Shown here: positions 29,605-38,800 of the stretch, piece after piece
Position numbering within the stretch: the first letter of the stretch is position 1
Layout of the letters: every line of letters starts with the position of its first letter
Assembly: GCA_029718625.1 (NCBI GenBank)
Contig: CM056396.1
Location: 27,367,075-27,431,074, forward strand
Direction: 5' to 3'
Source of the DNA: Synaphobranchus kaupii
Taxonomy: Eukaryota; Chordata; Actinopteri; Anguilliformes; Synaphobranchidae
DNA length: 64,000 nt
Notes under the pieces: generated by a model
Database searches by the model: none
Told to the model about the DNA's origin: nothing
What the model saw: the letters and a program-made list of their open reading frames with translations, nothing else
Translations under genes and position numbers: made by a program

Positions 29605-29867
29605 TTAAAGCAGAGATTTGGGCTGTGGCCACGCCCCCCTGGCCACGCCCCGGCCCGCCCCAGGAGCGTCAGCGGGGTTCTGCTCGTGCCCCATCGGGGG
29701 GCTCCGGGGTGGAGGGGCGGGGCGTGGACCTGGGTTTGGGCGGGGCGCTGGTGGACCCTCCTCCTCCTCTTCATCCTCCTGCACCTCCAGGTTCTCCAGC
29801 ATCTCCTGGATCAGGGGAGGCATCAAACCCGGGATCTCCATCTTCAGCGAGATCACCCGCTCTGCGC
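29605..29867 (-). CDS. RARB: RARB terminal coding exon: helix 11-12 and F domain
   Basis: Acceptor GTGTGGTTGCAG on the - strand; stop TAA at 29605-29607. It encodes [20 protein letters not shown] then QEMLEN, the AF-2 helix 12 that recruits coactivators when ligand is bound. After that the F domain is an acidic run ([11 protein letters not shown]) and a Pro/Arg-rich tail quite unlike human RARB. The tail could be a real lineage difference or another frame shift in GC-rich DNA. The first 14 bases of this exon are part of the neighbouring minisatellite unit. Confidence 0.9.
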
Positions 29868-32800
29868 CTGCAACCACACCCGTCAGTTACTCCACCCGCT
29901 CTGCGCCTGCAACCACACCCTCAGTTACTCCACCCGCTCTGCGCCTGCAACCACACCCGTCAGTTACTCCACCCGCTCTGCGCCTGCAACCACACCCTCA
30001 GTTACTCCACCCGCTCTGCGCCTGCAACCACACCCGTCAGTTACTCCACCCGCTCTGCGCCTGCAACCACACCCTCAGTTACTCCACCCGCTCTGCGCCT
30101 GCAACCACACCCGTCAGTTACTCCACCCGCTCTGCGCCTGCAACCACACCCTCAGTTACTCCACCCGCTCTGCGCCTGCAACCACACCCTCAGTTACTCC
30201 ACCCGCTCTGCGCCTGCAACCACACCCTCAGTTACTCCACCCGCTCTGCGCCTGCAACCACACCCCTCAGTTACTCCACCCGCTCTGCGCCTGCAACCAC
30301 ACCCCTCAGTTACTCCACCCGCTCTGCGCCTGCAACCACACCCTCAGTTACTCCACCCGCTCTGCGCCTGCAACCACACCCTCAGTTACTCCACCCGCTC
30401 TGCGCCTGCAACCACACCCTCAGTTACTCCACCCGCTCTGCGCCTGCAACCACACCCCTCAGTTACTCCACCCGCTCTGCGCCTGCAACCACACCCCTCA
30501 GTTACTCCACCCGCTCTGCGCCTGCAACCACACCCTCAGTTACTCCACCCGCTCTGCGCCTGCAACCACACCCCTCAGTTACTCCACCCGCTCTGCGCCT
30601 GCAACCACACCCCTCAGTTACTCCACCCGCTCTGCGCCTGCAACCACACCCTCAGTTACTCCACCCGCTCTGCGCCTGCAACCACACCCTCAGTTACTCC
30701 ACCCGCTCTGCGCCTGCAACCACACCCCTCAGTTACTCCACCCGCTCTGCGCCTGCAACCACACCCCTCAGTTACTCCACCCGCTCTGCGCCTGCAACCA
30801 CACCCTCAGTTACTCCACCCGCTCTGCGCCTGCAACCACACCCCTCAGTTACTCCACCCGCTCTGCGCCTGCAACCACACCCCTCAGTTACTCCACCCGC
30901 TCTGCGCCTGCAACCACACCCTCAGTTACTCCACCCGCTCTGCGCCTGCAACCACACCCTCAGTTACTCCACCCGCTCTGCGCCTGCAACCACACCCTCA
31001 GTTACTCCACCCGCTCTGCGCCTGCAACCACACCCCTCAGTTACTCCACCCGCTCTGCGCCTGCAACCACACCCCTCAGTTACTCCACCCGCTCTGCGCC
31101 TGCAACCACACCCTCAGTTACTCCACCCGCTCTGCGCCTGCAACCACACCCCTCAGTTACTCCACCCGCTCTGCGCCTGCAACCACACCCCTCAGTTACT
31201 CCACCCGCTCTGCGCCTGCAACCACACCCTCAGTTACTCCACCCGCTCTGCGCCTGCAACCACACCCCTCAGTTACTCCACCCGCTCTGCGCCTGCAACC
31301 ACACCCCTCAGTTACTCCACCCGCTCTGCGCCTGCAACCACACCCCTCAGTTACTCCACCCGCTCTGCGCCTGCAACCACACCCCTCAGTTACTCCACCC
31401 GCTCTGCGCCTGCAACCACACCCTCAGTTACTCCACCCGCTCTGCGCCTGCAACCACACCCCTCAGTTACTCCACCCGCTCTGCGCCTGCAACCACACCC
31501 CTCAGTTACTCCACCCGCTCTGCGCCTGCAACCACACCCTCAGTTACTCCACCCGCTCTGCGCCTGCAACCACACCCTCAGTTACTCCACCCGCTCTGCG
31601 CCTGCAACCACACCCCTCAGTTACTCCACCCGCTCTGCGCCTGCAACCACACCCTCAGTTACTCCACCCGCTCTGCGCCTGCAACCACACCCTCAGTTAC
31701 TCCACCCGCTCTGCGCCTGCAACCACACCCCTCAGTTACTCCACCCGCTCTGCGCCTGCAACCACACCCCTCAGTTACTCCACCCGCTCTGCGCCTGCAA
31801 CCACACCCCTCAGTTACTCCACCCGCTCTGCGCCTGCAACCACACCCCTCAGTTACTCCACCCGCTCTGCGCCTGCAACCACACCCCTCAGTTACTCCAC
31901 CCGCTCTGCGCCTGCAACCACACCCTCAGTTACTCCACCCGCTCTGCGCCTGCAACCACACCCTCAGTTACTCCACCCGCTCTGCGCCTGCAACCACACC
32001 CTCAGTTACTCCACCCGCTCTGCGCCTGCAACCACACCCCTCAGTTACTCCACCCGCTCTGCGCCTGCAACCACACCCCTCAGTTACTCCACCCGCTCTG
32101 CGCCTGCAACCACACCCTCAGTTACTCCACCCGCTCTGCGCCTGCAACCACACCCCTCAGTTACTCCACCCGCTCTGCGCCTGCAACCACACCCCTCAGT
32201 TACTCCACCCGCTCTGCGCCTGCAACCACACCCTCAGTTACTCCACCCGCTCTGCGCCTGCAACCACACCCTCAGTTACTCCACCCGCTCTGCGCCTGCA
32301 ACCACACCCCTCAGTTACTCCACCCGCTCTGCGCCTGCAACCACACCCCTCAGTTACTCCACCCGCTCTGCGCCTGCAACCACACCCTCAGTTACTCCAC
32401 CCGCTCTGCGCCTGCAACCACACCCCTCAGTTACTCCACCCGCTCTGCGCCTGCAACCACACCCCTCAGTTACTCCACCCGCTCTGCGCCTGCAACCACA
32501 CCCTCAGTTACTCCACCCGCTCTGCGCCTGCAACCACACCCTCAGTTACTCCACCCGCTCTGCGCCTGCAACCACACCCTCAGTTACTCCACCCGCTCTG
32601 CGCCTGCAACCACACCCCTCAGTTACTCCACCCGCTCTGCGCCTGCAACCACACCCTCAGTTACTCCACCCGCTCTGCGCCTGCAACCACACCCTCAGTT
32701 ACTCCACCCGCTTTGCGCCTGCAACCACACCCCTCAGTTACTCCACCCGCTCTGCGCCTGCAACCACACCCTCAGTTACTCCACCCGCTCTGCGCCTGCA

Positions 32801-35800: not shown

Positions 35801-38800
35801 CACAGCCCTCAGTTACTCCACCCACTCTGCGCCTGCAACCACACCCGTCAGTTACTCCACCCGCTCTGCGCCTGCAACCACACCCGTCAGTTACTCCACC
35901 CGCTCTGCGCCTGCAACCACACCCGTCAGTTACTCCACCCGCTCTGCGCCTGCAACCACACCCTCAGTTACTCCACCCGCTCTGCGCCTGCAACCACACC
36001 CGTCAGTTACTCCACCCGCTCTGCGCCTGCAACCACAACCGTCAGTTACTCCACCCGCTCTGCGCCTGCAACCACACCCTCAGTTACTCCACCCGCTCTG
36101 CGCCTGCAACCACGCCCCGTCAGTTACTCCACCCGCTCTGCGCCTGCAACCACACCCCTCAGTTACTCCACCCGCTCTGCGCCTGTAACCACGCCCGCTC
36201 TGCGCCTGCAACCACGCCCGTCAGTTACTCCACCCGCTCTGCGCCTGTAACCACACCCTCAGTTACTCCACCCGCTCTGCGCCTGTAACCACGCCCCTCA
36301 GTTACTCCACCCGCTCTGTGCCTGCAACCACGCCCATCAGTTACTCCACCCGCTCTGCGCCTGTAACCACGCCCCTGTCAGTTACTCCACCCGCTCTGTG
36401 CCTGTAACCACGCCCCTCAGTTACTCCACCCGCTCTGCGCCTGTAACCACACCCCTCAGTTACTCCACCCGCTCTGCGCCTGTAACCACACCCCTCAGTT
36501 ACTCCACCCGCTCTGCGCCTGTAACCACACCCTCAGTTACTCCACCTGCTCTGCGCCTGTAACCACACCCCTCAGTTACTCCACCCGCTCTGCGCCTGTA
36601 ACCACACCCCTCAGTTACTCCACCCGCTCTGTGCCTGTAACCACGCCCCTCAGTTACTCCACCCGCTCTGCGCCTATAACCACGCCCCTCAGTTACTCCA
36701 CCCGCTCTGCGCCTGTAACCACACCCCTCAGTTACTCCACCCGCTCTGCGCCTGTAACCACACCCTCAGTTACTCCACCCGCTCTGTGCCTGTAACCACG
36801 CCCCTCAGTTACTCCACCCGCTCTGCGCCTGTAACCACACCCCTCAGTTACTCCACCTGCTCTGCGCCTGTAACCACGCCCGTCAGTTACTCCACCCGCT
36901 CTGCGCCTGTAACCACACCCTCAGTTACTCCACCTGCTCTGCGCCTGTAACCACGCCCGTCAGTTACTCCACCCGCTCTGCGCCTGTAACCACACCCCTC
37001 AGTTACTCCACCCGCTCTGCGCCTGTAACCACACCCCTCAGTTACTCCACCCGCTCTGCGCCTGTAACCACACCCCTCAGTTACTCCACCCGCTCTGCGC
37101 CTGTAACCACACCCCTCAGTTACTCCACCCGCTCTGCGCCTGTAACCACGCCCCTCAGTTACTCCACCCGCTCTGCGCCTGTAACCACACCCCTCAGTTA
37201 TTCCACCCGCTCTGCGCCTGTAACCACACCCTCAGTTACTCCACCCGCTTTGTGCCTGTAACCACGCCCCTCAGTTACTCCACCCGCTCTGCGCCTGTAA
37301 CCACACCCCTCAGTTACTCCACCCGCTCTGCGCCTGTAACCACACCCTCAGTTACTCCACCTGCTCTGCGCCTGTAACCACGCCCGTCAGTTACTCCACC
37401 CGCTCTGCGCCTGTAACCACACCCTCAGTTACTCCACCTGCTCTGCGCCTGTAACCACGCCCGTCAGTTACTCCACCCGCTCTGTGCCTGTAACCACACC
37501 CCTCAGTTACTCCACCCGCTCTGCGCCTGTAACCACACCCTCAGTTACTCCACCCGCTCTGCGCCTGTAACCACACCCCTCAGTTACTCCACCCGCTCTG
37601 AGCCTGTAACCACGCCCCTCAGTTACTCCACCCGCTCTCCGCCTGTAACCACACCCCTCAGTTACTCCACCCGCTCTGCGCCTGTAACCACACCCTCAGT
37701 TACTCCACCCGCTCTGCGCCTGTAACCACACCCCTCAGTTACTCCACCCGCTCTGCGCCTGTAACCACACCCCTCAGTTACTCCACCCGCTCTGCGCCTG
37801 TAACCACGCCCGTCAGTTACTCCACCCACTGACACGCCCTGTCAGTTACTCCACCCAGAGGACCCCACCCCTGTCTGTAACTCCACCCACAGAACCAAGC
37901 CCCGTCAGTAACTTTGCCCACAGAACCAAGCCCCTGTCAGTAACTCCACCCACTGACACGCCCTGTCAGTTACTCCACCCAGAGGACCCCACCCCTGTCA
38001 GTTACTCCACCCAGAGGACCCCACCCCTGTCTGTAACTCCACCCACAGAACCAAGCCCCTGTCAGTAACTCTGCCCACAGAACCAAGCCCCTGTCAGTAA
38101 CTCCACCCACACAACCAAGCCCCTGTCCATTTCCTGTTAGTGGGAGGGTGAGGGTTTTGGGTAGCGGTCTGTTTCCTGTTAGCGGGAGGATGAGGAGGGT
38201 GAGGAGCCGTTCCTGACCTTTGGTGCTGATGCTGCGCAGGTCGGTGATCTTCATCAGGGTCTTGGGGAACATGTGGGGCATGCTGGGACGGCGTTTGCGG
38301 ATGTAAATCTTCAGCGCCTCCAGCAGGGGCTCCTGCAGCTGGTCGACCCGCGACGGCTCCTCCAAACCCTGCCGGTCTGAAACGCAAACCCCACCTCACT
38401 GTGGGAGGTCACATCCTAACCCTGCCCCCTACCACCTGGGACCCGCCCCCCACTGTGAGATCACATCCTATCCCTGCCCCCTACCACCTGGGACCGCTCC
38501 CCATTGTGAGATCACATCCTAACCCTGCCCCCTACCACCTGGGACCCCGCCCCCCATTGTGAGATCACATTCTAACCCTGCCCCCTACCACCTGGGACCC
38601 GCCCCCCATTGTGAGATCACATCTTAAAAAAGCAAGGAAATTGTGAATGCTAGTGACTGCTGTACCACTCTTGGCCAACAGATGGCAGTGTGTTTATTCT
38701 AAAACGTTCCATACAATCATTTTCAGTACAGGCCAGCGCCAGGCAAAGTGGCTCAGTTTTTGGTTGCTCAACACTGTGAAATATTCCACCAGATTCGGGC

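Follow-up and report, generated by a model that had tools for sequence, protein, structure and literature searches.

A splice-boundary minisatellite of about 207 units in the last intron of a RARB-like gene of the deep-sea eel Synaphobranchus kaupii

How is a single splice acceptor chosen when the intron before it carries some two hundred copies of the same site? This question is raised by a RARB-like gene on the minus strand of a 64,000-nucleotide stretch of the Synaphobranchus kaupii genome (contig CM056396.1, positions 27,367,075 to 27,431,074; the window), whose last intron (29868-38217, 8,350 bp) contains a tandem array in which each unit joins the 3' end of the intron to the first 14 bases of the last exon. 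The array is probably a splice-boundary minisatellite of the "mirage" type that has grown to 207 units, with decoy acceptors that are mostly silent, a reading that is favored here without being held as certain and that makes no statement on the intactness of the gene.

From the donor, the intron consists of about 90 unrepeated nucleotides (nt), followed by about 320 nt of a 32-bp repeat and then by the array, which was recovered by Tandem Repeats Finder (TRF) as a single array of about 207 copies with 95% matches (coordinates of the features are collected in Table 1). A search allowing at most three substitutions detected 207 copies of the exon bases GCGCAGAGCGGGTG, including the real exon start, 188 of them exact. 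Unit lengths are mainly 39 (n = 116) and 38 bp (n = 85), the remainder being 37 (n = 3), 41, 40, and 23 bp (n = 1 each). The acceptor AG is retained in 207/207 units, in the forms TTGCAG (159), TTACAG (46), TTATAG (1), and CTACAG (1), and most units show a branch-point-like TAACTGA followed by GGTT(G/A)CAG. The last unit continues straight into the true exon at the junction TTGCAG/GCGCAGAGCGGGTGATCTC (29868/29867). Tandem units that combine an intron edge with an exon edge, with splice signals in the copies, are the features that place the array in the mirage type. The exact 22-mer GGTTGCAGGCGCAGAGCGGGTG was counted 152 times in the 1.5-Gb genome and 152 times in the window, therefore exact copies of the TTGC-type core are limited to the RARB locus. 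Invariance of the AG was considered as a signal of selection and rejected, as many positions of the unit are equally invariant. On the plus strand, three open frames of about 2,000 codons overlap along the array (29334-35685) because the repeats contain no stops.

RARB was the best match of the gene's protein among solved structures, and the annotated S. kaupii protein SKAU_G00408390 (P0001, 170 aa) equals the window over all covered parts of the last three coding exons, passing over the stretch around a one-base frame shift. The last exon is considered ancestral because 187 of the 228 RAR-like proteins fetched contain KGAERV (of the others, 17 show KGAERA, one KGAERM, and 23 lack KGAER). An earlier reading made from the sequence alone (the sequence-only reading) had proposed a RARB-like gene with a duplication across the exon boundary, both of which are borne out, and about 210 copies of a 38-bp unit in an intron of about 8 kb; the tandem array is real, with its dimensions corrected to those given above.

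With respect to the origin of the array, the 32-bp family is in phase with it (GGGTGGAGTAACTGACAGGGCGTG... vs GGGTGGAGTAACTGACGGGCGTGGTTACAG/GCGCAGAGCGGGTG in unit 1), and the array unit corresponds to the 32-bp repeat continued into the last intron bases plus the first 14 exon bases. The motif GGGTG is found at the start of the 32-bp repeat and again at exon bases 10-14. The simplest reading of these sequences is that a single misaligned exchange at the common GGGTG between the 32-bp repeat and the exon may have produced the founder unit, with expansion afterwards. Homogenisation is seen in the array, but uniformity peaks next to the exon and diversity at the opposite end: counted towards the exon, successive quarters contain 23, 10, 6, and 3 unit types (21, 8, 4, and 2 when the length of the G run is ignored), and the fall from 23 to 3 points to recent growth beside the exon. 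The two commonest unit types differ by a G3/G4 run alone, and part of the difference between 38 and 39 bp may be base-calling noise.

If the array behaves as a mirage, the terminal acceptor, the sole copy attached to the full exon, would be the usual splice partner of the 159-nt exon, and the 206 decoys, each followed by 14 exon bases, would be mostly ignored, giving at most low-level transcripts in which GAERVE is followed by a stop, or slower splicing. Several observations weigh against this proposal. A 19-junction matrix of this region scores the true acceptor at 9.9 and the decoys at 2.9-12.0 (median 8.3), 83 of the 206 decoys scoring at least as high as the true site, which is moreover tied lowest in pyrimidines (7/16; 7-16 in the 19 others). 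As the true acceptor is pyrimidine-poor and is not singled out by its local score, the distinction presumably lies elsewhere. In addition, donor use of two downstream repeat units is reported for IFI6 (PMC4526556), and new splicing patterns can result from boundary repeats in human duplicated genes (PMC2812944). On the other hand, RT-PCR (reverse transcription PCR) of Adh3 and globin transcripts suggests that regular splicing is not disturbed by mirages (PMC3087553), and globin constructs with a duplicated 3' splice site used the distal site exclusively, whether the proximal site was followed by 14, 55, or 205 exon nt (PMC5389562); since the choice was alike at the three lengths, the length of the decoy exon is not demonstrated as its cause. 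The duplicated acceptors of those constructs were spliced very inefficiently, and splicing was inhibited when two 3' splice sites were occupied at the same time (PMC5389562). By analogy with these systems, which include the counter-example of IFI6, the RARB decoys would be mostly silent and slower splicing would be their most plausible side effect.

The inhibition seen when two 3' sites are occupied at once (PMC5389562) also favors a different explanation, in which many weak 3' sites bind U2AF/U2 together and slow the removal of the last intron, such that a longer array would lower receptor output by retention. The AG present in every unit and the branch-like TAACTGA present in most agree with this idea; nevertheless, the pyrimidine tracts are weak, other TOP2B introns are filled by arrays that contain no exon sequence and have no known role, and the idea is regarded as improbable. 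An equally low standing is given to a composite in which splice-boundary arrays are common around TOP2B/RARB and removal of the last intron is held back, the more so the longer the array, by competition among the 206 decoys for U2AF/U2, a little truncated product arising on the side. Even less probable is the proposal of the sequence-only reading that decoys are used frequently to produce a truncated dominant-negative RARB, the length of the array tuning the retinoid response. The truncation that it predicts for decoy use is borne out: 205 of the 206 decoys, which resemble the true acceptor, would lead to six residues ending in VE (187 exactly GAERVE) and a stop within the last exon, before helix 12, and one decoy would give a longer tail. 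This product presumably ends at the equivalent of V395 plus one Glu, and so would lack the equivalent of residue 396. RAR403, a C-terminal truncation 403 residues long that likewise lacks helix 12, acts as a dominant negative (PMC7202665), which together with the use of repeated splice sites in IFI6 (PMC4526556) speaks for the proposal. However, RAR403 retains residues to P403, I396 included, and the decoy product would end 8 residues earlier and presumably without the I396 equivalent; as RARalpha I396E shows no corepressor binding (PMC6484772), RAR403-like behaviour of the decoy product cannot be assumed. The distal-site choice of the globin constructs (PMC5389562) and the unproven integrity of the gene argue in the same direction, as does, weakly, the absence of GAERVE among the 228 RAR-like proteins fetched, almost all of them from other species and mostly predicted.

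The state of the gene is central to another explanation, which is compatible with the mirage reading and overlaps it in probability: this RARB copy could be a broken duplicate in which the array grew unopposed, a possibility that deserves attention and is still rather unlikely. A search of about 173 kb upstream did not recover residues 1-259 of the Anguilla RARB-like protein. Across the genome, residues 1-52 have a solitary match on C5 (88%), the best candidates scored include no set of residues 52-259 other than those of the five other RAR genes, and another RARB with all segments present lies on C7. The 206-nt exon carries one extra A that shifts the frame, either an assembly error or gene damage, and a 500-N run (40620-41119) begins about 130 bases upstream of it. 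Given this run, the shift and the absent 5' half, a break exists in the scaffold or else in the gene. Array density was examined as a mark of a false join at the 500-N run and discarded, since large arrays occur on both sides (two of them just past the run, within the window) and it is outside the window that density falls to 6%; array content therefore gives no sign of a false join at this place, a point in favor of a decaying gene. Conversely, the contigs may be wrongly joined at this run, and the frames are open apart from the shift, the aligned pieces being 96%, 83% (with intron ends), and 100% (first 27 residues of the last exon) identical to Anguilla. The first exon on C5 is also open and 88-90% identical, and a similar one-base shift, seemingly present in TOP2B near 20925, points to base errors. 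That the length of the array is inflated, or the array itself false, as a product of assembly is very doubtful: probable homopolymer errors nearby and the G-run difference between the commonest units could be taken in its favor, but the ordered unit variants, the in-phase parent family, the diversity gradient and the separate boundary arrays next door would hardly arise by misassembly. The exact copy number of the array is uncertain.

One-base homopolymer frame shifts were located at 20925 (TOP2B exon, by inspection) and 40320 (RARB exon), both probably assembly base errors. On the RARB side, the two stretches outside the window (L009-L018 and L029-L033) have array densities of 6% and 5%, and the 5' half of the gene is absent, for which a scaffolding error or a broken gene are possible causes. 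In Aldrovandia affinis, a predicted RARB protein (P0245, AAFF_G00320570) shows the segment of the last two exons repeated in tandem.

Considered as a splice-boundary minisatellite, the RARB array is accompanied by others in TOP2B, which lies next door on the plus strand (S. kaupii protein P0124) and is the usual neighbour of RARB. For the 31 introns (62 edges) of the RARB-like gene and TOP2B, 24 bases of each exon edge were searched for in the edge's own intron, with 1,860 edge-by-other-intron pairs as controls. TOP2B introns 16 (0.87) and 21 (0.38), both with unreliable junctions, intron 22 and the introns adjoining the masked part of TOP2B stand outside the edge tests; intron 18, whose donor may have been annotated so as to bypass a frame shift, is within them and outside the 19-site matrix. 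A score of at least 28 was reached by 6 of the 62 edges vs 1 of the 1,860 control pairs. These edges are the donors of TOP2B introns N0 and N6 (in the flank), 10 and 17, the acceptor of intron 13, and the RARB intron. The copy in intron 13 is a lone, dispersed one and is not counted as a tandem array. Intron 7 was counted by inspection of its tandem pattern, its donor edge scoring 23 (its own reversed intron, 19; control pairs, 9/1,860 at 22 or above and 5/1,860 at 24 or above). The acceptor edge of RARB_prev scored 21 vs 18. Altogether, tandem boundary arrays are present in six of the 31 introns, five at TOP2B donors and one at the RARB acceptor, therefore boundary arrays are not specific to RARB. 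Among the five other RAR genes no exon-edge copies above all controls were found (18 edges, 9 introns; the preceding acceptor of the C7 gene was set two bases off), and their last introns carry none. The notion of a special regulation of RARB, implied by the sequence-only reading, loses ground with both results. In N0, the units measure 79-99 bp and contain CA repeats, 19 of the 21 copies being exact over 34 bases; translation of five of the 20 decoy donors gave a premature stop in all, therefore their regular use would damage TOP2B, a point in favor of silent decoys. TOP2B intron 14 contains about 248 copies of the 20-bp CCTCTAACCCACAGCCACAC (12730-17828, plus strand), which are branch-point- and acceptor-like on the TOP2B strand and not exon-derived.

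Table 1. Coordinates of the array, of the adjacent RARB-like exons and of exon-edge copies in TOP2B (window positions except where a contig handle is given).
Feature	Coordinates	Strand	Remarks
Boundary-spanning minisatellite, 207 units of 38/39 bp	29854..37827	-	Intron 3' end + first 14 nt of last exon
Exon bases GCGCAGAGCGGGTG included in each unit of the array (14 nt)	29854..29867	-	
Older 32-bp intronic repeat family (GGGTGGAGTTACTGACAGGGGCTTGGTTCTGT and variants)	37812..38127	-	In phase with array; presumed parent of the 38/39-bp unit
Last coding exon, RARB-like gene	29605..29867	-	Runs to SLL; stop TAA 29605-29607; P0001 match throughout
Penultimate coding exon, 159 nt	38218..38376	-	Donor AAAG/GTCAGG
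Preceding ligand-binding-domain exon, 206 nt	40282..40487	-	One extra A (GAAAACTGG) shifts frame
TOP2B N0 (first mapped intron)	G000:C21:27356116-27358492		21 tandem copies including the real one: CTCAG/GTGAGTCTCC, consensus donor
TOP2B N6	G000:C21:27362269-27362821		58-bp array, 7 copies including the real one, of CACCACCA(A/G)G/GTAACCGCGG
TOP2B intron 7 (exon end 7302)	7284..7499	+	5 degenerate exon-end copies, 2 followed by GTAA donors; weakest boundary array
TOP2B intron 10 (exon end 9769)	9746..10180	+	91-bp unit with 24 nt of exon; real donor GCAAGT + 4 GCCAGT copies
TOP2B intron 13	12455..12473	+	Lone dispersed copy of the next exon's first 19 nt, without preceding AG
TOP2B intron 17 (exon end 20443)	20428..20638	+	5 exon-end copies, 4 followed by GT, 1 by TT

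Arrays of this kind are already known. NAGNAG acceptors lie a few bases apart, and with a spacing of 38/39 bp the RARB copies do not belong to that type. The closest relatives are the amphioxus mirages of Adh3 and the globins BflGb6 and BflGb9 (PMC3087553, which cites Canestro 2002), also boundary-spanning tandem minisatellites with many copies that carry splice signals; in BflGb6 the unit likewise combines the 3' end of the intron with the 5' part of the exon, with haplotypes of 6 and 3 units vs 207 in the RARB array (PMC3087553). Unlike them, the RARB array resides in a vertebrate gene and its unit derives from an older intronic repeat. In human IFI6 (6-16), a minisatellite at an exon edge also multiplies a splice site (PMC4526556, citing Turri 1995), there on the donor side and with two repeat units reportedly used as donors; a repeated donor at the exon 3' end is found in the five TOP2B arrays, whereas in RARB it is the acceptor that is repeated. 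Genes of human segmental duplications also contain boundary minisatellites, which can change splicing and make new introns; these average about 4 units of 30 bp and were examined for their variation between recent paralogs (PMC2812944). The globin constructs share with RARB the competition of identical acceptors, one of them with 14 exon bases after the upstream site, and differ in being artificial and limited to two sites (PMC5389562, the design being cited to Reed and Maniatis 1986). Hence the statement of the sequence-only reading that no such case had been described does not hold, amphioxus mirages and the IFI6 minisatellite being precedents, with far smaller copy numbers among those examined. 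The scale and density are new to us: no fish case and none of equal size was found in the open-access literature examined. The locus offers a natural experiment: one exon is preceded by 206 near-identical acceptors and, about 40 kb away, a TOP2B exon is followed by 20 near-identical consensus donors, the true site being known from the conserved protein; RNA of this fish would reveal whether more than the local splice-site sequence picks the right site. For the question of how introns grow and are gained, the arrays suggest that in a vertebrate short introns can be enlarged by expanding minisatellites, which can also take up splice sites again and again.

Arrays make up 22,890 of 34,033 bp of the intron sequence and occur in 19 of the 31 introns. 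Random placement of founders predicts 4.0, 3.4, and 2.4 boundary-spanning arrays out of 21 (arrays, unit lengths and sizes set by hand) at overlaps of at least 6, 8, and 12 exon bases, the probability of six or more being 0.18, 0.10, and 0.014, respectively; at the 12-base overlap five arrays qualify by inspection, as N6 shares about 10 bases. A splice-site-targeted mechanism was considered and is not needed, as random placement predicts 2.4-4.0 of 21, and there may be a mild enrichment of boundary arrays over it. Tandem arrays cover 36% of the flank on the TOP2B side and 50% of the window, vs 6% and 5% of the two stretches beyond it on the RARB side. In the last intron of RARG on C11, a 34-bp array without exon sequence starts exactly at the donor GG/GTCAGTAC and comprises 18 donor-like copies, including the real one.

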